64,000 bases of DNA from Fibrobacterota bacterium (GTDB taxonomy: Bacteria > Fibrobacterota > Fibrobacteria > UBA11236). The DNA lies in NCBI GenBank assembly GCA_028287465.1, contig JAQBPO010000042.1, forward strand, positions 62,001-126,000. The letters run 5' to 3'. How positions within the stretch are numbered: position 1 is the stretch's first letter; the number at the start of each line of letters is the position of its first letter. The notes beneath the pieces are model-generated. The model was given only the letters and a program-made list of their open reading frames with translations. It searched no databases and had not been told where the DNA came from. Positions 160 to 22,898 of the stretch are shown here, piece after piece. A program made the position numbers and the translations under genes.

Positions 160-1686
160 TTATTGGACGCCCTCTTTTTCGATCCTCAGGTTCTCGAGGA
201 ATACGGTTCCACCGGCGGCTCCCTCAGGCTTGGTGATGCTGAAAGGGAGGCGGTTGAACTCGAGCTTCTGGGAGCTCGTCCAGATCAGCAGGGGAACCAC
301 GATGTTCTGCCATCCGGTCTTGGCCGGATCGTACCCCACGTCGACAAGCCGGATTTCCACCGCGTCCGCAAGATGCTTGGACTCCAGCTTGATGCGGAGA
401 TCCGGGGCCTGGGACTGGATGGAGAACTTCAATGCCGATCCGATCCACGAACTCAGGTCGATGGTGTCCTGCGCCCCGGCATTGTCCAGGAACAACAGGA
501 AGGCGATGCCCCAGGAGGTCGTAAAGGTCAGCTTACGGCATTTGGGCTCGGCATTGCAGGTGGTGACTTCTTCGCTTTTCCCCGGCAGGATGCCCTTGGC
601 GCCCGGGTCCGGGACCGCGCCCACGTCCCCGCCGTTGAAATACCAGGTCAGGTTCATCGGCGGCTTGGTGGCGTCGATGGCGGGGCTCAGCTTGCCCTTG
701 GTCTTGTAGCCCAGGATCAGGACCGTATCCTGATCCGGAACGGAGCAGGTGAACAGGTCCTTGCAGTTGGGATCCTTGCAATCGATCAACCCATCCGCGT
801 CGTTGTCCAGCCCGTCCTTGCAGAGCAAGGTGGTGTTTTCGGCCGGCTGGCAGATCGTGAAATTCTCGCAATCCGAATCCTTGCAATCCGTGATCCCGTC
901 GCCATCGTTGTCCTTGCCGTCCTTGCAAAGGGCGGGGGTGTTCTCCACCGGAGGCTGGCAGGCGCTGAACCCGGCGCAATCGGCGTCCGCGCAGTCGATC
1001 TTCCCGTTCCCGTTATTGTCCGCCTTGTCCGTGCAGAGGGCCAAGGTGTTCTCCACCGGCGCGTCGGACGAGCATAGCTTCAGGGTCTGGCATTGGGGGT
1101 CCGCGCAATCGATCTTGCCGTCCGCGTTGTTGTCCGCCTTGTCCGAGCAGAGTATGACGGTGTTCTCCGCCAAGGCGTCCGGGTTGCACAGCTTCAGGGC
1201 CTGGCATTGGGCATCGGCGCAATCGATCTGGCCGTTGGCGTTGTTGTCGATCTTGTCCGAGCAGAGCGCATTGGTGTTCTCGACGAGGATGGGAGGCTGG
1301 CATTTCTGGAAGGACTTGCAGCGCGCGTCGTCGCAGTCCGTCTGGCCGTTGGTATCATTGTCCTTGCCGTCGCTGCAGCGGACCAGGGTGTTCTCGGCGG
1401 TTTCCGAATTGTTGACGGCCTGGCAGGCCTGGAAGATGGAGCAGGCGGGGTCGTCGCAATCAACGAGCCCGTTGGCGTCGTTGTCTATCTTGTCCGCGCA
1501 TTCGCCGATCGTGTTCTCGGTCGGGGTGGGGGAGAAGGCCTCCACCTTGCGCAGCTTGTAGCTGTCCGTGTAATCGGAAATGCAGCTTAGGAGGACGATG
1601 CCCGCCAGCATGGCCAACCCCCTGGTCAGCAACGTGGCGGTCGGAACTCCCGGCGCTTCCGGGAACGGTTTGCCTTGCTTGCTCAT
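160..1686 (-). CDS. Lipoprotein with seven DNDxDG cysteine repeats
   Basis: This 508-residue protein has a lipobox (LLSC, Cys35), so it is probably a lipid-anchored envelope protein. Residues 57 to about 300 are seven tandem units of about 35 residues. Each starts with ENT, then a Cys, then a D-K/G-x-D-N-D/N-x-x-G core, a DC pair and a final Cys. The acidic DNDxDG core resembles calcium-binding loops of thrombospondin-3 or dockerin type; the four regular cysteines suggest disulfides. Residues 302-508 form a separate beta-rich module that could bind glycan, but I cannot name its family. It is the last gene of the five-gene operon and starts 1 nt after the stop of the upstream gene. Function unknown; a surface or periplasmic partner of the upstream channel is inferred from position only. 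Confidence 0.9.
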   Translation of the reverse strand: MSKQGKPFPEAPGVPTATLLTRGLAMLAGIVLLSCISDYTDSYKLRKVEAFSPTPTENTIGECADKIDNDANGLVDCDDPACSIFQACQAVNNSETAENTLVRCSDGKDNDTNGQTDCDDARCKSFQKCQPPILVENTNALCSDKIDNNANGQIDCADAQCQALKLCNPDALAENTVILCSDKADNNADGKIDCADPQCQTLKLCSSDAPVENTLALCTDKADNNGNGKIDCADADCAGFSACQPPVENTPALCKDGKDNDGDGITDCKDSDCENFTICQPAENTTLLCKDGLDNDADGLIDCKDPNCKDLFTCSVPDQDTVLILGYKTKGKLSPAIDATKPPMNLTWYFNGGDVGAVPDPGAKGILPGKSEEVTTCNAEPKCRKLTFTTSWGIAFLLFLDNAGAQDTIDLSSWIGSALKFSIQSQAPDLRIKLESKHLADAVEIRLVDVGYDPAKTGWQNIVVPLLIWTSSQKLEFNRLPFSITKPEGAAGGTVFLENLRIEKEGVQ

Positions 1687-1687
1687 A

Positions 1688-3817
1688 TCAGTCCTCGCGG
1701 CCGAAGCTCATGGAAAAGTCCAGCAATACCTTGGGCTTGGGCAGGTCCCGGCCGAATCCGACCTTCAGGGACGCGCTGTAGCCGACCCACTTGAAGGCGC
1801 CTTCGTGGCTCAGGGCCGCGCCCACGCGCTGCTCGAACCCGCGGTCGCTGTGGAACCGGTTCTCCAGCCAGTAGGCCGGCCCGATGCCCACGGCATGGCC
1901 CAGGTTGAGCCCCAAGAGCAGTTCCACCAGGAGCACTTCGTTGTCCCCGTTCCCGTAGGCGTCCATCAGGCGGTCGGCGTCCTCGCTGCAGCCCAGGAAC
2001 CCGGCCATCAGGCTGTCGGCCTGATCGGTCCGCGACCGCAGATCCTTCAGGCAGGTTTCCAGTTTCTTGTCCCCCAGCTGGTTCTTCTTGAAGTCCTGGG
2101 GATTGAAGAGCAGGATGCCTTGGCGGGCATGGTATTGCGCCAGGTAGGTGAAGAAAAAGGGATTGTCCCTCAAGCGATTGTGGCGCCCGTCCAGGCGCAG
2201 CATGAATCCGCCGGAAGTGACTCCCGAGCCGCCGGCGAAATTGAAACCCATGTCCAGGTACATCCTGTTGTCCGATCCGGCCAGGGAGGCGGGCAGGGGT
2301 TCGAACCCGGCGAAGAAGAACGGCAGGGAGGCTTTGTCGACCTCGGTGAACAAGGCCCCCAGGCGCGCGCGGCCCAGGCGGTAGAAGACATCGGCATGGG
2401 CGCCGCCGTCCACCTGGCGGATGCGGAAGTCCAGGTTCTGGGCCAGGGCCTCGTGGGAGAGCACCTGATAGGAGACCATCTGCCGGGCCTGGTTGCCCAA
2501 TTCGTCCTCGGCGGAGATTTCCACCACGTGGCTGCCGGGGCTGAGGGTGGCGAGGGGGATGCGGCCCCCGGCCAGTTCCACCGCGCCGTTTTCCGAGCGC
2601 GCCAGGTAACGGATATCCCTGCCTGGCCCGAGCGCCACCGGCGTGTAATAGGAGGACTGTCCCTGCAGCAGTTCATTGCTGTTCAAGGCGCTCTCGAACC
2701 TGAGGGCCGAAGGGGCCGCCAGGTTGAAGGTCCTTTTGTCCGCCGCGCCCAAGGGATCCACGGCTTCCAGTCCGAAGGTCAGTTGGCTGACCTGGGAAGC
2801 GTCCTTGACCCGCATGCTGAAGGTGCGGGTGGCGGCGTCGAAATTCATCCCGTCCGGCATGGCGAACGGCTTCAATTTCAATTCCGAAACCAGGTGATCG
2901 GGGTCGGAGATATAAGGCTGGAACTGCCAGAGGCCGTCCGGACCGGTCTCCCGCGCCGGCTCGCCGCCGATCTTGGGCTTGCCGTTGCGGGTTACGATGA
3001 GATCGAAAACCAGTTCGTCGGAATGCTTCGCGGCGTTCTGGGCCCTGGCCTTGACCTTCCAGGCGCCCGCCTTTTCCGGCTTCCCCGTGATGGAATGGGT
3101 GCGGTCGTCCCAATGAAGACCCTGCGGGAGGCGGGAGTCGATGGAGTAGTCCAGGTCGGTCGAAGGCGCGGCGCGGTCCACGGCCCACAGGGTCCAGGAG
3201 AAAGGCTGATCCTCGAAGGCCCGCCGCGGCGGCTCGGAGATGATGGACGGCTGGGTGTTCGGTATTTCCGGCTTCTTCCCGCCGGGCTTCCCGACGAAGC
3301 GCAGCATGCCGAGCAATTCGTTCGGCGCCATCACCGTCATCTTGTTGCCTTCGAAGCGGAATCCGATTTCCGCCTTGTCCGGCACGCGTCCGAAGTATTC
3401 CTCGAGGATGGTTATGAATTCCGCGCCCAGGGTATAGGCGATCTTCTCGCGGCCCTCGGCCAGATCGGCGCGGGACTTCCACACCTCGCCGCTCGATTGG
3501 GCCGAAAGCTCGACCACCGCCGCATTGCGGATCTTGTCGAGCACGCCGGCGGACTTCATGGTCTGCCAGACCTCCTCGTCGATCAGGATCACCTTGTTCT
3601 TGAAACGGATGATGTCCCCGATGGAGACGCCGCGGCGCAGATCCCCGATCAGGAATACGGGCCGTCCCTGGGCGTTGAACCGGGCGGTGAAGTCCGCTTC
3701 CACCTGCTTGTCAGGGATGGAGGCCACCCCGTAATGGTTGAGCGATTCTTCGGCATGCGCCGCCATCGCCAGCCCCAGGAACAGGAGGCAGGAAGCGGTC
3801 CGGAGGAGGTTGCGCAT
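1688..3817 (-). CDS. Exported protein with Ig-like (He_PIG) domains and barrel-like C-terminus
   Basis: The 709-residue product starts with a clear signal peptide ending AMAAHA, so it is exported. The first 190 residues are a mixed alpha/beta region with no family I recognise. Around residues 200-290 there is a putative Ig domain with the LPQGLHWD..ITGKPEKAG pattern typical of He_PIG/cadherin-like folds, followed by two more beta-sandwich-like stretches. The last 230 residues alternate hydrophobic and polar positions and end in KVLLDFSMSF, which looks like an outer-membrane barrel or barrel-associated domain. The start codon overlaps the stop of the upstream ExbD-like gene by one base, showing translational coupling. 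Role unknown; it could be the envelope load of the channel encoded upstream. Confidence 0.88.
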   Translation of the reverse strand: MRNLLRTASCLLFLGLAMAAHAEESLNHYGVASIPDKQVEADFTARFNAQGRPVFLIGDLRRGVSIGDIIRFKNKVILIDEEVWQTMKSAGVLDKIRNAAVVELSAQSSGEVWKSRADLAEGREKIAYTLGAEFITILEEYFGRVPDKAEIGFRFEGNKMTVMAPNELLGMLRFVGKPGGKKPEIPNTQPSIISEPPRRAFEDQPFSWTLWAVDRAAPSTDLDYSIDSRLPQGLHWDDRTHSITGKPEKAGAWKVKARAQNAAKHSDELVFDLIVTRNGKPKIGGEPARETGPDGLWQFQPYISDPDHLVSELKLKPFAMPDGMNFDAATRTFSMRVKDASQVSQLTFGLEAVDPLGAADKRTFNLAAPSALRFESALNSNELLQGQSSYYTPVALGPGRDIRYLARSENGAVELAGGRIPLATLSPGSHVVEISAEDELGNQARQMVSYQVLSHEALAQNLDFRIRQVDGGAHADVFYRLGRARLGALFTEVDKASLPFFFAGFEPLPASLAGSDNRMYLDMGFNFAGGSGVTSGGFMLRLDGRHNRLRDNPFFFTYLAQYHARQGILLFNPQDFKKNQLGDKKLETCLKDLRSRTDQADSLMAGFLGCSEDADRLMDAYGNGDNEVLLVELLLGLNLGHAVGIGPAYWLENRFHSDRGFEQRVGAALSHEGAFKWVGYSASLKVGFGRDLPKPKVLLDFSMSFGRED

Positions 3818-4359
3818 CAGTTAGGCAATCCCCGTTTGTTGATCCATTCCTGGTATTGCCGGTTCAGGCTCTCGGCCTCGGGAGTCTGGTTGTAATCGAT
3901 CTGGTTGTCCAGGCGGAACCATTTCTTCTCCTGGGGGCTCCACTTCATGCGGCCGTGGCTGTAGCTGGGCACGTTGCTGAACTTCTGGATGTACATGGAG
4001 TAGTAGGTCTGCTTCTGGACGTCATGCCGCACCACCATCAGGTTCTGGTTGGCATCGGCGGCCTCCAGGATCCGCGCGCCTCCGCCCAATTCCGTGAGGA
4101 TGACGGAGTTGCCGTTCAGATCGAAGGCGTCCTCGTACTGCCGGGCGTCCTTGTCCTCGCGCTTGTTCCCCACCACGTAGGCGTAGGCCTTTTCCCAGAT
4201 GGTGCCTTTTTCGGCCCGCTCCAGGCGCGCCTTGTCCAGGCTCATCATGGGCACCAGGAGAACCATGCGCAGGACCAGGATCACCACCATCACGGTCAGG
4301 GCGTCCTCGACCGCGAGCGCGGGCCCCAGATCTTCGGCTTCGGATTGATGCACTATCAT
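3817..4359 (-). CDS. ExbD/TolR/MotB-like single-helix protein
   Basis: The 180-residue protein has one transmembrane helix (about residues 20-39) close to the N-terminus and a periplasmic remainder. Asp19 sits at the cytoplasmic start of that helix in VEDALTVMVVILVL, matching the position of the proton-carrying aspartate of ExbD and TolR. Arg31 inside the helix is unusual. The C-terminal 140 residues do not look like the OmpA/MotB peptidoglycan-binding fold or the standard ExbD domain, so the family assignment rests on topology, the aspartate and the MotA/ExbB-like neighbour. Its start overlaps the stop of the channel gene by one base and its stop overlaps the next start, as expected for subunits made in step. 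Confidence 0.8.
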   Translation of the reverse strand: MIVHQSEAEDLGPALAVEDALTVMVVILVLRMVLLVPMMSLDKARLERAEKGTIWEKAYAYVVGNKREDKDARQYEDAFDLNGNSVILTELGGGARILEAADANQNLMVVRHDVQKQTYYSMYIQKFSNVPSYSHGRMKWSPQEKKWFRLDNQIDYNQTPEAESLNRQYQEWINKRGLPN

Positions 4360-5624
4360 CAGTTGATTTCCGGCTTGAGGTGCCTGGGAACGCTGATCTG
4401 GGACTGGACCTCCAGGAAGGACCGGTACTGCCGTTCGTAGTTGAGCAGCTCATCCATGCGTTTGGCGAAGGCCAGCTGCAGGGGAGGGATGTCCCCCATC
4501 TTCTGGGCGATATGCTGGACGAAGCCGCCCAGCATATCGACGTTCTTGTTGACGCCCAACTGGGTCTCCTGGATGCGGAGCTCGGTGTCCTTGAGGGCCT
4601 TGAGGAACATGGACTCGGAGTCCTTGTGCAGGCGCATCCAGTTCTCCTGGGAGCCCTGGTAGAGCGCGGTGATATGCTTCTGCGAACTCTCCTTCAGTTC
4701 CAGCAGGCGCCCTTGGAACTCCCGCTCCAGGTCGAGCATCTTCTGCTGGAAGGCCTGCTGCTGCATCAGGGACTTGCCCAGATCGTCCTTGCCGCCCACC
4801 TGCTCGCGGATCCAGGGCTGCAGGTCGGTGATGCTCCATTCGTCGACGAAGCCGTTCACCATCTCGAAGGTGCCGCAGATGCGCTTGAGGACCTGGATGG
4901 TGAGGAGCTCGATGAGGATGGAAAGGGCGGTGGCGATCAGGGTCGCGAGGATGGCGTATTGATCCCCGTCGATGGCGCCGGCGATGTGCTCCACGAAGCT
5001 GGAACCCTTTTCCGCGTTCTTCGGATCCAAGGTGAGGATGGCCTCGCGCATGGGGGGGAAGGTCATGATCAGGCCGATCAGGGTCCCGAGGAATCCCAGC
5101 TTGAGCAGGATGCGGTTGACCGAAGCGTGCACGCCGACTTTCTTGTCCACGCTCTTCATCCGCCGCATGGTCGCGTGATCCATCATGGCCGCCAACGGGA
5201 CCGTATCGCCCTTCATGCCGAACATGAGGGAGCGGTTGATCAAATCGTACAGGTGGCCGGTAAGGTTCAGGGATTGCAGCCGGGTCTGCAACTCCGCCAG
5301 GGATATCCCCCGGGCCTGCAGCAGGACGCCCAGGGTAAGCTTCACCTTCTTCAGGCCGTGGGAAAGGACCCGCAGCTGGATGAGCGCGGAAACCTGGCCG
5401 TAGGCGAAGATGGCGAACATGATGAGCAGGAAGGGATCGTTGTACCAGGAGGGGATCCGGGGCGCATGGGCCGTGGCGGCATGGCCGGGGGCGCCTATCT
5501 GGAGGCAGACGACGGCCGCCGCGAGGACGGGCAAGGGCATCAGCTTGGCCCATCCGATCAAGGTTCCCGTCTTATCGGCGGTCAGCTTGGCGTTTTCCAA
5601 TGGCGAATGGCTCTTCATGCTCAT
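4359..5624 (-). CDS. MotA/TolQ/ExbB-family proton channel with long coiled-coil tail
   Basis: This 421-residue inner-membrane protein shows the family signature in GFLGTLIGLIMTF (residues 177-189) and ILATLIATALSILIELL (225-241), the two long helices that line the ion path. Two more hydrophobic stretches lie at about 27-45 and 64-84, giving four helices. Residues 270-421 are charged and heptad-like, a cytoplasmic coiled-coil tail longer than in TolQ or ExbB and reminiscent of ZorA-type channels. I placed the start at 5624: AAGGA lies 6 nt upstream and the ATGA overlaps the stop of the barrel gene. A second ATG at 5618 is possible. With the 180-residue partner it should form a proton- or sodium-driven stator; what it drives is not known. 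Confidence 0.9.
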   Translation of the reverse strand: MSMKSHSPLENAKLTADKTGTLIGWAKLMPLPVLAAAVVCLQIGAPGHAATAHAPRIPSWYNDPFLLIMFAIFAYGQVSALIQLRVLSHGLKKVKLTLGVLLQARGISLAELQTRLQSLNLTGHLYDLINRSLMFGMKGDTVPLAAMMDHATMRRMKSVDKKVGVHASVNRILLKLGFLGTLIGLIMTFPPMREAILTLDPKNAEKGSSFVEHIAGAIDGDQYAILATLIATALSILIELLTIQVLKRICGTFEMVNGFVDEWSITDLQPWIREQVGGKDDLGKSLMQQQAFQQKMLDLEREFQGRLLELKESSQKHITALYQGSQENWMRLHKDSESMFLKALKDTELRIQETQLGVNKNVDMLGGFVQHIAQKMGDIPPLQLAFAKRMDELLNYERQYRSFLEVQSQISVPRHLKPEIN

Positions 5625-6754
5625 CTCCCTTCCTTGGACCGCAGTCCGAAAATCAATTCGCCGCTCCAGGCGACGCGGAACTGGCTCCTGTCGGAACCGA
5701 AATACGAGATCCGCCCCAGCCCCAGGCTGAGGGGGATTCCCTGTTCCCCGAGGCTGATCGAGGTAAGCGCCACCGGAGCGAACCGGTACCATCCGCCCGG
5801 GATGAATCCTTCCGGCGTCACCACCATCCCCATGCCCCAGGTTCCCAGGAATCCGGGCAGGTCGTCGAACGCGGCGTAATGGATGGGGGCCTTGTAGATG
5901 TCCGGAGCGACCGTCACCGTGTAACGGAAGGCTCCCATGCGGGTTTCCACGCTATGCGCCAGGGAGGGGGGAGCGGCGTTCTCGAAAATCTTCACGACCT
6001 TGGTGGGCGAGGTGCCGGCGTTCCGGCCGAAATATTTCCCCCGGAGATCCGATTCCGTCCAGAAAAATTCCGGCAGGGGCAAGGGCGCCCATTGCAGGTG
6101 GTAGCGCACGAAATCGGCCCCGATGCGCGCCCCGCCTCCGAAACGGCCGGCCTTGGCCGCATAAGGCACCGAATCCGACAGCTCCCCCTTGAAAGAAACA
6201 TAGGACGCCTCGGCGCCGACGTAGATGAAACCGAACTTCTTCACCAAGGCCGCTTCCGTCCTGCCCCTGCGGACCAGCACGCCGCTATAGGAATAGTCCA
6301 TGGCATATCCCAAGGTCAGGCTCTCGTCCCAATGCCCCAGGCGATCCCAGAGGCCTTCCTTATCCTGGGTGCTCAACCATGAGGACCCCGATCCTTGCGC
6401 GGAACCGCCTTCCCCCTGGGAGGCGGACGGACCCGCGTTCCCCGAGGCCAGTTGCGAGCGGATCTCCGGGAAATCGGCCAACAGCGCATCCGCCTGGGAT
6501 CGTTCGAAGCGGCCGGCTTCGGTCCCATCCAGGAATACGATCAGGGAAGGCGTCGCCCCGCGTTGTTTCCAGACCGTCACCCGACCGGAGGCGAGCCTGG
6601 AGGTTTCAAGGCCCAGCTTTTTGGAAACGAGGTCCAGGAATTGCCGGTCTGTGACCGGCACGCCCATCTCCTGTGCGGTCGCGGGTGCGGCCATCAAGGT
6701 GATACCCATTGCCAGCGCGCAATAAAATGCGAGCACGATGCGTTTTCTACGCAA
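5621..6754 (-). CDS. Exported outer-membrane-barrel-like protein, first gene of the channel operon
   Basis: The 377-residue product opens with a basic stretch and a signal peptide ending PATAQ. Residues 30-110 form a small globular domain; a Gly/Ser-rich linker follows, and from about 135 onward the sequence shows repeated amphipathic beta-strands rich in aromatic residues, as in an outer-membrane barrel. I chose a TTG start at 6754, with GGAGAGG 7 nt upstream, because an in-frame extension to 6901 would run through the predicted promoter. The last base triplet overlaps the start of the channel gene. As first gene of an operon with an ExbB/ExbD-like pair, it may be the outer-membrane end of that machine. 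No named family recognised. Confidence 0.8.
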   Translation of the reverse strand: MRRKRIVLAFYCALAMGITLMAAPATAQEMGVPVTDRQFLDLVSKKLGLETSRLASGRVTVWKQRGATPSLIVFLDGTEAGRFERSQADALLADFPEIRSQLASGNAGPSASQGEGGSAQGSGSSWLSTQDKEGLWDRLGHWDESLTLGYAMDYSYSGVLVRRGRTEAALVKKFGFIYVGAEASYVSFKGELSDSVPYAAKAGRFGGGARIGADFVRYHLQWAPLPLPEFFWTESDLRGKYFGRNAGTSPTKVVKIFENAAPPSLAHSVETRMGAFRYTVTVAPDIYKAPIHYAAFDDLPGFLGTWGMGMVVTPEGFIPGGWYRFAPVALTSISLGEQGIPLSLGLGRISYFGSDRSQFRVAWSGELIFGLRSKEGR

Positions 6755-7827: not shown

Positions 7828-9465
7828 TCAATTACAGGTCGAGGTCCCTGCGTAACCGCATTTCGCGAGGCTGGAGTTGGGGGTGACGGTGGAATCCTTT
7901 CCCGGGGCAAGGAGCACGGACCTGGTCACCTGGTAGCCGCGCAGGGGCCCGGACAAGGTATCGATGGCGTCCATGGTCAGGCTGTGGGAAACGTTGGGCG
8001 AGAAGTATTTGTAGGTCAGATGGACGTCGAAGGACTTCGTCCCATAAGGCCTGAAGGTCCAGGCCGTGCCGGTCGTGGAAGTGGAAATGCCGGCTTTGTC
8101 GCCCACCATCGCGCCGGCGCTCCCATTGGAGGTCCAACCCGCGTCGTTGAGGTCCAGGGTCGTTCCCGAGGCGCGCGCTATCCAGTTCGTCCCGCCGTCC
8201 GTGGTCGTCAACAGGGTCCCGCCCTGGCCCACCACGTATCCTGCCGAAGCGGTGGTCCAGTATACACCGGTCAGGTTCCTGGCGGTGCCGCTCGTCTGGG
8301 CCGTCCAGGCGGCTCCGCTGTTGATCGTCTTGAGGATGGTTCCCGAATCCCCTACCGCGTAGCCGACCGTGCTCGAGGCCAGGAAAACGGCGTTCAGATC
8401 CCGGGTGGTTCCGCTGGTCTGGGCGCTCCATCCGGTCCCCCCATCGGTGGTGCGCAGGATGGTTCCCGCGTTCCCCACCGCAAGGCCGTTATTGTTCGAG
8501 GTCATGAAGATGCCGTTCAGGTTCTGGGAAGTCCCGCTGGTTTGCGCCGTGAAGGAGGTGCCGGTGGTGGTCTTGCGGATCACGCCCGCATTGCCGACCA
8601 CCCAGCCCGCATTGTTCCCCGTGAAGTAGAGGGCGTTCAAATCCTGGGTGGTACCGCTCGTCACCGGAGTCCATGAGACGTTATCCGTGGTCTTCAGCAC
8701 CACGCCTCCGGCTCCCGCCGTCCAACCGACCGAAGAGCCCGGGAAGGCGACCGCATAGAGGTTCGCCGTGGTGCCGCTGACCAGGGTGGACCAATTGACC
8801 CCGCTGTTGGTGGTCTTGAGGATGGTTCCGCTATCGCCCACGGCGTCGCCGCTCGTGTTGCTGCCGAACTCCACGCTCCGCAAAGCCGGACCGATCTGCA
8901 TCGAATCCCGCGAGGTCCCGTCCACGCGGATGCGGACCCACTTCACGTTGTTGGCCAAGGAGGCCGGGCTGTTGGAAACGAAGCGCGCGCGCAGGATGGA
9001 GTATACGGGATTGGCGGTCTTGGACACGAAAGCGGTATCGCCGGGATTGACCGTGAAGGTGACGGAATCCCGGTGCACCGTATCCGTCCGCGCCGGATTC
9101 AAGGTGGTGTCTATGGAAAGGATGACGGCCTTCCAGGTGCGCAAGGAGGCGAGGGAGAATACCTTGGGGGTGACCGTGACATTGCCGGAATCCGAACGCC
9201 CGCTGATCGCGTAGGAATAGGTCTGGGTGGCGGACCCGGCGGAACTCAGGATCACGATCAGGGAGTCCAGCCGGAACAGGGTATCGGCGGAAGCGGACTT
9301 GAACAGGGCATTGGCGTTGGATTTGAGGTTCACCTCCAGGCTGAGGTAGCCGGGCTTTCCCGGATCCACTTCCAGGGTCTCGAAAAGGCAGGAGGCGAGC
9401 AGCAGGAACAGCGCGAAGGAAATCCTGTTCCATCGACCCTTTGGGTTCGGCATCGGTTGACTCAT
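7828..9465 (-). CDS. Lipoprotein with seven-bladed YCF48/BNR-type propeller
   Basis: The protein (545 residues from the chosen start) carries a lipobox (LLASC) after a hydrophobic stretch. The first 190 residues form a beta-rich N-terminal domain. Seven repeats follow, each built like GWxVGxxGxIxKTTxxGxxW..QTSGTxxxLNAV, the pattern of YCF48/Hcf136 propellers and related BNR blades. A 90-residue tail with two cysteines (CGYAGTSTC) closes it. The start is uncertain: in-frame ATGs lie at 9483, 9465 and 9456; I chose 9465 because it gives a normal lipoprotein signal. Role unknown; YCF48 repeats in secreted bacterial proteins are usually surface scaffolds rather than photosystem factors. Confidence 0.88.
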   Translation of the reverse strand: MSQPMPNPKGRWNRISFALFLLLASCLFETLEVDPGKPGYLSLEVNLKSNANALFKSASADTLFRLDSLIVILSSAGSATQTYSYAISGRSDSGNVTVTPKVFSLASLRTWKAVILSIDTTLNPARTDTVHRDSVTFTVNPGDTAFVSKTANPVYSILRARFVSNSPASLANNVKWVRIRVDGTSRDSMQIGPALRSVEFGSNTSGDAVGDSGTILKTTNSGVNWSTLVSGTTANLYAVAFPGSSVGWTAGAGGVVLKTTDNVSWTPVTSGTTQDLNALYFTGNNAGWVVGNAGVIRKTTTGTSFTAQTSGTSQNLNGIFMTSNNNGLAVGNAGTILRTTDGGTGWSAQTSGTTRDLNAVFLASSTVGYAVGDSGTILKTINSGAAWTAQTSGTARNLTGVYWTTASAGYVVGQGGTLLTTTDGGTNWIARASGTTLDLNDAGWTSNGSAGAMVGDKAGISTSTTGTAWTFRPYGTKSFDVHLTYKYFSPNVSHSLTMDAIDTLSGPLRGYQVTRSVLLAPGKDSTVTPNSSLAKCGYAGTSTCN

Positions 9466-9629
9466 CCTGAAGGGGGAAACCATCAATGGTAGTTTACCCC
9501 TCTCCTCCATCCCGTTCATCCTATTATCGGACGTGACGGGAGGTTACCCGCAGGCGGCGTGGGGCTTTCGGAGCGTCGATTTGGGTTTTTTTGGGCAAAT
9601 CCCCTCGGCCGGAGGCGCGCCACCGCGGC

Positions 9630-20147: not shown

Positions 20148-22775
20148 TCAGTACTCCATCGCCAGCCAAAGGCCCACGGTGCGGGTCTGGCCGAAATGGG
20201 TGCTGCCGAAGCTCGACTCGAACTTGTACAGGTACGGGGTATCCAGGACGTTCAGGACCGCGGCCCTGACTTCCAATCCGACCCCGCTCATGGGCAGGCG
20301 GTATTCCATGCCCAGGTCGAAGGTGGCATGGGGCGCGACGGATTTGTCCGGGGAACCCGGCTCTTCCGGTTCCAGGGAGAGCAGGTCGATCACGTCTTCG
20401 GAGTAACCGCGGCGGGCCAGTTCCGCGCGCGACTCCCCTTCGTCCAGGGCCATGCCGTCCTGGCCTACCAGGTCGAAGGGCAGGCCGGAGTCGAAACGGC
20501 CCCCGAAGGTGGCGGCCAATCCCATGGGGAGGCGGTAGCGCAGGTTCAGGACCGCGGTGGCGATCTGATTGTGCTCGGTGGGGAAGAAGTCCTCTCCGGC
20601 GAAGGGGTGGCCGTAATTGTGGCCTTCCTCGCCCACCAGCAGACCGGCCGCGATGGGGGAGGAGCCGTCGTCCGGCTTGAGGCCCAGGGAAGCGCATCCG
20701 CCCGCGGACAGGGATCCGGAAAGCCGTTTCCATTCGCGCAGGTGGACCGTGAACAGGCCTCCCGCGACCACGCCGCGCTTGAGGTTGACCGGGAAGATGA
20801 GGCCGGAGGCGCCCAGTTCCGCCTTGACCAGGAAGCTGGTGAGGTATTTGCCGTAGGCCCCGGCGTCGAAGACGAGGTAGCGGCCGTAACGCCAATCGGC
20901 CCCGAGGTCCAAGGCGATGGCCCGTTGGGCACCCACCGTAGCGGGTATGGTACCTTGATCGTCGCCGGAGAGCGGCCGCAGGGCCGGCGAGCTGGACATC
21001 AGGATATTCTCGAGGGGTGCCCGCGCGGCGAGCCAGTCCAGGGACGCGCGCAGGTCGAGATCGCGATTGACGGCATAGGCCGCGGCCAGGCGCGGGGAAA
21101 AAGCAAGCTCGGTCTCGAACAGGTCGAAGGCATCGTAGCGGAGGCCCGGGAGGAAGGACCATTTGCCGATTTCGAACCCGTCCTGCACATAGGCGGAAAC
21201 GGCGGACCCGGTGCGTTTCTCGTCCGCGGTCAGGGAGCGTCCGTTCCTGGAGATATCATAGGGCTTGAAGCGGTTGTCGGTCTGCGCGTCCGCAAGGGCG
21301 GAGTCCGTGACCGCGAAGGAAAGGGATTCGACGAGGGGATTGATCTCCCCGGAGACCCCGGCGCGGATCCGGTGGCCGCCGCCCAGCATGGCGGGTCGGG
21401 CCGTCAATTCGATTTGGCCGCCATGGTAGCCGTTCTCCCGGGAGGCTCCGATGAAAAAGCGTTCGTTCTCGCCCAGGGCGCGCAGGGAGTCCGCCGCCGA
21501 GCCGATGCGGGACAAGCCTCCGCTGGTCAGCTTGGCTTCCGCCCGGCGCGTGTACACGGCGGCCGCAAGGTGCGCGCTGCCTCCCAGGCCCGCTTCCAGG
21601 CGGGCTCCCGCCAGGTAGGATCGCAGTTCCTGCCCCTGGTCCTGGGCCGGCGTACGGCTCAGGGAATTCGGAACCTCGTATCCGCCCGCATCATAGGCTC
21701 CCAATACGTGGAATTGGATGTCCGCGCCCGCGAGGACGCTCAGCTTGCCGAAGAGATGGGCCCCATCCCCGCCGGCGTGGATGGGGTCGAAACCGGATAC
21801 GGGATCGAGGTAGCGATCGCTGCCGCTGCGGGCCGCGCTCACGAAAAGGCCGGTATACTCGCCGAGCCTGCCGCTGCCCACGGCCTGGATTTCCCTGGTG
21901 CCGAACGAGGCCGCTCCGGCGCCGGCGCGCAGGGAGAAGGGACGATCCAGTCCGTCCCGGGTGGTCACCGAGACCACGGCGGAACCGGCTGCGTACTGCG
22001 CCGGAAGGCCACCGGCGCGCACGTCGATGGATTTCGCCACATCGGCGTTGAAAAGGCTGGAATAGACTCGCGTGGGATTCCCGGACCAGGGGATGCCGTC
22101 CACCACGTATTGCACCTGGGCGTCCTCCCCGCGTGCATGCAGGCGCCCGTCTTCGTCGGGAACGACATCGGCGCTTTGCAGCAGGACCGCTTCGGCCGCC
22201 TTTTCCCGGGAGGGGACCAGGAGGCCCCGGATTTCTTCGGAGGTGAAAAAGGAATGTCCGGTCATCTCCAAGGGGGAAAGCGATCCCTCGGCGCGCACGA
22301 CGCGTTCCGGCAGGGATACGGCATCGGTCCCGGCCCCGCAGGATAGGTCCACGTTTACGGTGAGGGCGTTGTCGATCACGATTTCACGGACGGCCAGCAC
22401 GTACCCGCCGATGCCCGACTCGGCTCCGCCGCGGATGGCTTCCAGGCGGTAGGCCGCGAAAGGGACGCTGCGGAAGGCGAACGATCCGTCGCTCCCGGGA
22501 ACGGTTTCCTGCAAGGCCCGATCGGAGGATATCTCCCTCAGGACGATGCGCACGGATCCCGATCCGCTCCTTCCGGATTCCGATCCCTTTGCTCCATCAT
22601 GGAGGGATTCCCGTGCGAAGCCCCAAGGGGTGTTCTCCGGACTCGCGGCTTCCGCGCAGGCGCCTCCGGGGAACCGGCCGGAAAGGGTCGCCAGGGAGGA
22701 TTGACCCATCGAGGCCATTACTAGGGAAAGGATCAGGCTGGCGGTTTTTGAGGATGACATGATAATGCTTTCCAT
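20148..22775 (-). CDS. TonB-dependent-receptor-like outer-membrane protein
   Basis: The 875-residue protein has a signal peptide, an N-terminal carboxypeptidase-regulatory-like domain (about 75-150: RIVLREISSDRALQETVPG, then FAFRSVPFAAYRLEAI), a plug domain with VQYVVDGIPWSGNPTRVYSS and VAKSIDVRAGGLPAQY, and a barrel of about 600 residues ending in TVGLWLAMEY with a terminal aromatic. This is the layout of TonB-dependent receptors of the SusC/OMR type, though no SusD partner or classical TonB box is visible. It probably imports an oligosaccharide or other bulky ligand. The gene lies 123 nt downstream of the propeller gene, with a terminator-like hairpin between them. Start 22775 has AGGG 5 nt upstream; 22760 is an alternative. 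Confidence 0.88.
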   Translation of the reverse strand: MESIIMSSSKTASLILSLVMASMGQSSLATLSGRFPGGACAEAASPENTPWGFARESLHDGAKGSESGRSGSGSVRIVLREISSDRALQETVPGSDGSFAFRSVPFAAYRLEAIRGGAESGIGGYVLAVREIVIDNALTVNVDLSCGAGTDAVSLPERVVRAEGSLSPLEMTGHSFFTSEEIRGLLVPSREKAAEAVLLQSADVVPDEDGRLHARGEDAQVQYVVDGIPWSGNPTRVYSSLFNADVAKSIDVRAGGLPAQYAAGSAVVSVTTRDGLDRPFSLRAGAGAASFGTREIQAVGSGRLGEYTGLFVSAARSGSDRYLDPVSGFDPIHAGGDGAHLFGKLSVLAGADIQFHVLGAYDAGGYEVPNSLSRTPAQDQGQELRSYLAGARLEAGLGGSAHLAAAVYTRRAEAKLTSGGLSRIGSAADSLRALGENERFFIGASRENGYHGGQIELTARPAMLGGGHRIRAGVSGEINPLVESLSFAVTDSALADAQTDNRFKPYDISRNGRSLTADEKRTGSAVSAYVQDGFEIGKWSFLPGLRYDAFDLFETELAFSPRLAAAYAVNRDLDLRASLDWLAARAPLENILMSSSPALRPLSGDDQGTIPATVGAQRAIALDLGADWRYGRYLVFDAGAYGKYLTSFLVKAELGASGLIFPVNLKRGVVAGGLFTVHLREWKRLSGSLSAGGCASLGLKPDDGSSPIAAGLLVGEEGHNYGHPFAGEDFFPTEHNQIATAVLNLRYRLPMGLAATFGGRFDSGLPFDLVGQDGMALDEGESRAELARRGYSEDVIDLLSLEPEEPGSPDKSVAPHATFDLGMEYRLPMSGVGLEVRAAVLNVLDTPYLYKFESSFGSTHFGQTRTVGLWLAMEY

Positions 22776-22818
22776 GAGTGCCCTGGAAAAATAATGACGA
22801 TGCGGGATAAGCCGGGGG

Positions 22819-22847
22819 AAAAAGAAAGGCCGCCCCCACGACGGCCC
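22819..22847 (-). terminator. Terminator-like hairpin after the BNR propeller gene
   Basis: On the minus strand a GGCCG/CGGCC stem is followed by TTTCTTTTT. It would end transcripts of the gene at 22899-25523 before the TonB-receptor gene. The stem is short, so partial read-through is likely. Confidence 0.45.
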
Positions 22848-22898
22848 TTCCCTCCGACCTCGCCGCCCCAAGGGCCGGGTCATAGGCTCAAATCGGCT

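Follow-up and report, generated by a model that had tools for sequence, protein, structure and literature searches.

Few ion-driven motors of the pentamer:dimer type are known, namely MotAB/PomAB, AglRQS, ZorAB, SiiAB, TolQR and ExbBD (PMC12204202). GldLM also belongs on this short list. In the Bacteroidota, TonB-dependent barrels carry an Ig-fold N-terminal extension that has been implicated in the contact with TonB (PMC12204202), a parallel for the arm of the barrel protein described here. The four-gene set that we analysed stems from the Fibrobacterota, a phylum whose members degrade polymers and about whose surface machinery little is known. As a set, the four genes match no named system in Pfam, NCBIfam or PADLOC, and a search of the open-access literature found no description of them; the system appears to be undescribed, as originally predicted. 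A 2016 survey of the phylum does not mention gliding, MotA, ExbB or TolQ.

The genes lie in a stretch of 64,000 nt, here called the window, from a Fibrobacterota bacterium (GCA_028287465.1, contig JAQBPO010000042.1, positions 62,001-126,000). Five open reading frames, G1, G2, G3 (the D gene), G4 and G5 in that order, occupy the minus strand of the window from 6754 to 160, with junctions of -4 (G1/G2), -1 (G2/G3), -1 (G3/G4) and +1 nt (G4/G5); the tight five-gene operon of the original prediction is thus present. With an alternative start of G2 at 5618, the G1/G2 junction would become +2 nt. A promoter scan returned a single site, located on the opposite strand and at chance level. Elsewhere in the window, a YCF48-type (PSII_BNR) repeat protein (E 5.7e-18) is encoded at 7828-9519, two genes upstream of the operon and on the same strand, and a TonB-dependent receptor-like barrel protein (PF00593, E 4e-16) at 20148-22883.

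A search of all open reading frames of the fetched loci recovered the core of G1, the MotA-like G2, D (G3) and the Ig/barrel protein G4 in the same order at 21 of 21 distinct loci. Since homologous frames occur at 20 other loci (D identity 27-87%), always in the order G1-G2-G3-G4, these are real genes and not chance open reading frames. G2 and G3 overlap by 1, 4 or 8 nt in 18 of the 21 loci. The flanking genes differ between families and none is common to them, and the persistence of the four genes at 21 loci while their neighbours change suggests that they work as one unit. The proposal of a five-gene unit consequently stands for the four core genes, which are kept together, and falls for G5, which lies outside (4+1). 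Conservation with the block does not extend to any gene for a substrate of transport. Two loci contain irregular frames: in G087 (L070:8879-9381, the same DNA as L065:7974-8476), two overlapping frames share the D gene, which is either disrupted or affected by an assembly error, and in G012 (L028), around the junction of D with the Ig/barrel gene, the N-terminal domain of the latter is divided between two reading frames.

The four-gene set is nearly confined to the Fibrobacterota. A profile of G3 found matches in 17 of 167 genomes of the phylum, and one based on the N-terminal domain of G4 in 18 of 167, from seven families, as well as in one genome outside the phylum (G265; about 220 tested); the core is nearly absent from the large family f3. 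Scanning 84,980 species with one strict pattern, which distant relatives could escape, yielded 14 loci, of which 12 are titled Fibrobacteres, Fibrobacteria or Fibrobacter and two only 'bacterium'. One of these two is the G265 contig and the other lies in G087, a Fibrobacterota genome. The distribution derives mostly from metagenome-assembled genomes, in which absence may mean missing contigs, though many of the genomes lacking the core are nearly complete. The G265 copy consists of the four-gene block on a contig of 4679 bases (C206; L062/L110) with a GC content of 25%, in a genome that the taxonomy used groups with the window genome at the level of the domain only and whose bin also contains SprA. 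The GC content (25%) and 3-mer make-up of the contig, which match those of the other readable contigs of the bin, speak against a binning error. The copy is probably genuine and, in line with its classification, located outside the phylum; it possibly reflects a transfer or a neighbouring phylum.

G2 (4359..5624, minus strand; 421 aa) is a MotA/ExbB-like channel subunit, with four transmembrane helices predicted by hydropathy at approximately residues 28-46, 64-82, 172-190 and 225-243. Its match to the Pfam family MotA_ExbB (PF01618) scores 17.8 bits (E 0.0029), below the cut-off of 22.9, while the family matches 11 of 14 G2 relatives (E up to 0.1; best E 2.4e-4), and in an hhalign comparison with eight MotA/ExbB proteins from the genome itself, the pore region aligns with a probability of 57.6 and an E value of 1e-4. 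In an alignment of the 14 relatives, the pore region (4893..5129, minus strand) reads GFLGTLIGLIxTFPPM ... AIDGDxYAIxxTLxATxxSxxxE, that is, a pore helix with GxxGTxxG and, after it, another conserved pore helix that bears threonine, as in the PF01618 family. The strongest conservation falls on the last two transmembrane helices, and T181, T188, T228 and T232 are invariant. Judging from these sequence features, we count G2 among the remote members of the MotA/TolQ/ExbB superfamily. The profile evidence, together with the co-conservation, supports the idea of a MotA/TolQ/ExbB-type channel pair in a tight operon with envelope proteins that belong to no named family. The long cytoplasmic tail ascribed to the channel does exist in the window protein, where the alignment of relatives places about 157 residues at the C-terminus (4362..4832, minus strand), but its length varies among relatives and it is therefore not a core feature.

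The small subunit G3 (3817..4359, minus strand; 180 aa) has one transmembrane helix followed by a periplasmic beta-rich domain. The helix starts with an acidic pair, of which position 18 is acidic in 21 of 21 loci (Glu in 20, Asp in one; codon of Glu18 at 4306..4308, minus strand), whereas position 19 is Asp in most loci, Glu in two, Asn in one and Ser in one. The invariant acid is accordingly Glu18 and not Asp19, which had been proposed as the key residue of the helix; hhalign sets the Asp of ExbD opposite position 19, beside Glu18. The periplasmic part forms one domain of approximately 120 residues (3835..4200, minus strand), for which an AlphaFold2 model (pLDDT 80.6) predicts a pair of short helices ahead of seven consecutive strands, with a further helix at the C-terminus. 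ExbD has a periplasmic fold with a mixed order of helices and strands, unlike the seven consecutive strands of this model. G3 does not match PF02472 (ExbD/TolR) at E values up to 1, its periplasmic domain matches no Pfam family and no OmpA-like peptidoglycan-binding domain, and hhalign against the ExbD proteins of the same genome aligns only 35 columns of the transmembrane region, with a probability of 2.2. Foldseek found nothing under E 0.001 for the model in the PDB. The fold matches listed comprise TipC2 (Z 7.6) and polo boxes (Z 5 to 7.5), values in the range typical of unrelated models, and include no ExbD, TolR or MotB chain; the domain may nevertheless have an ExbD-like fold. Membership of G3 in the ExbD, TolR or MotB families was rejected on the missing profile match and the alignment restricted to the transmembrane region, which bears out, at the level of sequence, the description of the channel's partner as devoid of a standard ExbD or MotB periplasmic domain.

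G4 (1688..3817, minus strand; 709 aa) begins with a signal peptide and an N-terminal domain, followed in the AlphaFold2 model by three Ig-like domains and a 12-stranded barrel. The N-terminal domain (3305..3748, minus strand) is a family of its own in the alignment, matches no Pfam family and is the best conserved part of the protein, with 23 invariant positions in 10 relatives, making it a candidate for the contact with the motor. The fold search barely probed this domain, since its matches were dominated by Ig domains. The three Ig/cadherin-like domains (residues 186-455; 2453..3262, minus strand) are indicated by fold matches, with Z values of 12.7 and 12.5 against the cadherin-like modules of SraP, and by the Pfam family He_PIG (E 7.5e-10), which is also found in 12 of 13 relatives. 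The C-terminal 245 residues or so (approximately residues 460-706; 1700..2440, minus strand) are modelled as a barrel of 12 strands with a helical loop at 565-626. This region contains 12 amphipathic strands compared with 8.1 +/- 1.6 in shuffled sequences, and it has no Pfam match at E values up to 10. The barrel matches the porin KdgM with Z 12.1 (165 residues, rmsd 4.3), FapF with Z 11.0 over 193 residues and TamA with Z 8.7, where the background for models without a clear match is Z 7 to 8, as the tool states. The KdgM and FapF values exceed this background over the whole domain, and the supposed Ig protein is thus, in its predicted structure, an envelope-spanning outer-membrane barrel protein with an Ig arm in the periplasm. 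Of the Ig protein and separate outer-membrane barrel originally listed, the Ig-like domains are upheld by He_PIG, but the barrel is the C-terminal part of the same protein. The even number of strands would place both ends of the barrel, and hence the arm, in the periplasm. With a pTM of 0.41, and with residues 100-185 of the N-terminal domain poorly modelled (pLDDT by blocks mostly 43-61), the domains of G4 are credible singly and their mutual arrangement is not.

The first gene of the core, G1 (5621..6754, minus strand; 377 aa), has a TTG start behind GGGAGAGGG and a signal-peptide-like segment at residues 6-24, and is predicted to be secreted. Its homologues lead the block at the 20 other loci, and it belongs to no family in Pfam or NCBIfam. 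The original prediction placed the barrel in this gene. An amphipathic-strand scan of G1 gave 9 strands, no better than the 8.4 +/- 1.7 of shuffled sequences, and the demonstrable barrel is the C-terminal part of G4, although G1 may be a barrel after all. Relationships of G1 to the G4 barrel (hhalign probability 2.0) and to the G4 N-terminal domain (0.2) were rejected.

The window operon is a divergent second copy with an added lipoprotein, G5. The window genome carries another copy on contig C82, whose G2 is 41% and whose D is approximately 33% identical to that of the window. G5 occurs only at three loci (L030, L020 and L023), those of the window, G002 and G005, which form one G2 clade with a support of 100/100, apart from the ordinary copies of the same genus; all three genomes also carry an ordinary copy. 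In family f1, the ordinary copy has a conserved gene of approximately 330 aa upstream in the opposite orientation (L017:5640-6635 and equivalents in seven other loci), which is absent at the window copy and in other families. G5 (160..1686, minus strand; 508 aa), an accessory of the window-type copy, has a lipobox (LLSC) at Cys35, then seven acidic double-disulfide repeats, and ends in a domain of approximately 190 residues. The repeats belong to a described family, NF033662 (E 2.7e-55, seven stretches). The C-terminal domain has no match in Pfam or the PDB and one weak relative, another secreted protein of the same genome (E 5e-5); from the look of its pattern, we suspect a sugar-binding jelly roll. 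A lipoprotein with such a possible domain suggests a polysaccharide-related task for the window copy.

Based on these findings, we propose a hypothetical mechanism in which (i) five copies of G2 surrounding two of G3 would form an ion-driven inner-membrane motor with the 5:2 stoichiometry of its family; (ii) ions would pass at the pore threonines of G2 and Glu18 of G3, as their conservation suggests; (iii) the periplasmic beta-domain of G3, unlike the peptidoglycan-binding end of MotB/TolR, would hand force to a dedicated partner; and (iv) this partner would be G4, whose periplasmic arm, composed of the N-terminal domain and the three Ig-like domains and of sufficient length to extend far across the periplasm, would meet the motor. 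As the arm would point to the inner membrane, its conserved tip is the natural meeting place with G3, and the force could act directly on the G4 barrel without the need for TonB. G1 would serve as a secreted partner. We consider this combination of a motor with a barrel-borne arm, taken as a whole, to be reasonably probable. The motor might then gate or power the outer-membrane pore in a Ton-like manner, but through an arm that is part of the barrel protein itself. Such a task is favoured by the resemblance of the barrel to porins and by the accessory lipoprotein that joins one copy, and we put it forward tentatively, as somewhat short of probable; the barrel may also be an anchor only.

Other tasks have been considered for the same set of proteins. 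The plan of Agl-Glt, a motor plus outer-membrane proteins (PMC3169522), would suit a machine for surface motility or adhesion in which the motor would drive the G4 barrel, or proteins bound to this barrel, along the cell in the manner of AglRQS-Glt or GldLM, and the Ig domains and the repeat lipoprotein of the window copy would fit adhesion. However, Glt and Gld partners are missing from the conserved block, the ordinary copies share no adhesin-like gene beyond the four, and the Ig domains should, given the even strand number, face the periplasm and not the outside. We therefore regard this explanation as unlikely. Envelope maintenance similar to that by Tol-Pal, with the motor pulling or holding the outer membrane via G4 as an anchor, agrees with the pairing of a motor with a protein fixed in the outer membrane and with substrate genes not lying nearby. 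Its patchy occurrence (17-18 of 167 genomes) and near absence from family f3 are unlike those of an essential maintenance system, and profile comparison does not relate the G3 domain to TolR, which leaves this possibility rather improbable.

A role of the block as the motor of the type IX secretion system (T9SS) might be considered because Fibrobacterota have SprA and a T9SS has been proposed for Fibrobacter succinogenes (PMC6851124). Yet SprA occurs in 159 of 167 genomes (in 89 of 89 of good quality) and the core in only 17-18 of 167, so that the block is not a general T9SS motor. In addition, GldM has four periplasmic domains forming a shaft of 18 nm (PMC9389320), in contrast to the approximately 120 periplasmic residues of G3, and we consider this role very improbable. 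Returning to the motor with a barrel-borne arm, we judge it almost evenly balanced whether the four genes represent a self-contained trans-envelope motor class of the Fibrobacterota, in which the barrel protein's own drive arm would dock on a new axle subunit without TonB, TolA, GldM or a peptidoglycan-binding part. If true, a further 5:2 motor with a different axle domain and an outer-membrane partner encoded next to it would provide an additional means of transmitting force through the periplasm. Since the minimal set comprises four genes, the system is testable.

Among the characterised systems, MotAB/PomAB share with the block the four predicted transmembrane helices of the large subunit and the single one of the small subunit, but G3 has no OmpA-like peptidoglycan-binding domain and separate MotA/MotB-like genes are present in the genome. 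In total, the window genome has ten other MotA_ExbB places and eight ExbD (PF02472) places for roles of this kind, and G3 is not among the latter. ZorAB is a motor with a cytoplasmic tail on its large subunit, like G2; the partners in the block, in contrast, are envelope proteins, and assignment to Zorya was rejected, as none of the five proteins has a match in PADLOC. GldLM resembles the block in that its small subunit has no peptidoglycan-binding domain and may pass force on, and differs from it by the long shaft that G3 does not have and because the distribution of the block does not follow SprA. AglRQS-Glt likewise unites a motor and outer-membrane proteins in one system. However, AglR and AglQ/AglS are clear members of PF01618 and PF02472 with two ExbD-type subunits, whereas the block has one D gene at every locus and no Glt genes. 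In the window genome, contigs C32 (L079, L087, L089) and C96 (L082, L088, L090) each carry a cluster in which one ExbB-type gene is accompanied by ExbD-type genes (two on C32, two matches on C96), a layout like that of AglRQS and of FSU_2400-2403 in F. succinogenes. The latter is an ExbB/ExbD/ExbD/TonB cluster and different from the four-gene block.

The Ton system (ExbBD-TonB and its receptors) is comparable in that an ion-driven inner-membrane pair is expected to act on an outer-membrane barrel, and it shares with the block the acidic residue at the start of the small-subunit transmembrane helix and the GxxGTxxG motif of the large subunit. In contrast to Ton, the block has neither TonB nor a plugged receptor, the periplasmic domain of G3 is not ExbD-like by profile, and G2 has four predicted transmembrane helices, not three; its 12-stranded barrel bears an Ig arm of its own. 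The C-terminal part of G4 has, in its predicted structure, the fold of the 12-stranded porins KdgM and FapF (Z 12.1 and 11.0), from which it differs in that the barrel has no Pfam match and is fused to Ig-like domains as well as to a novel N-terminal domain.
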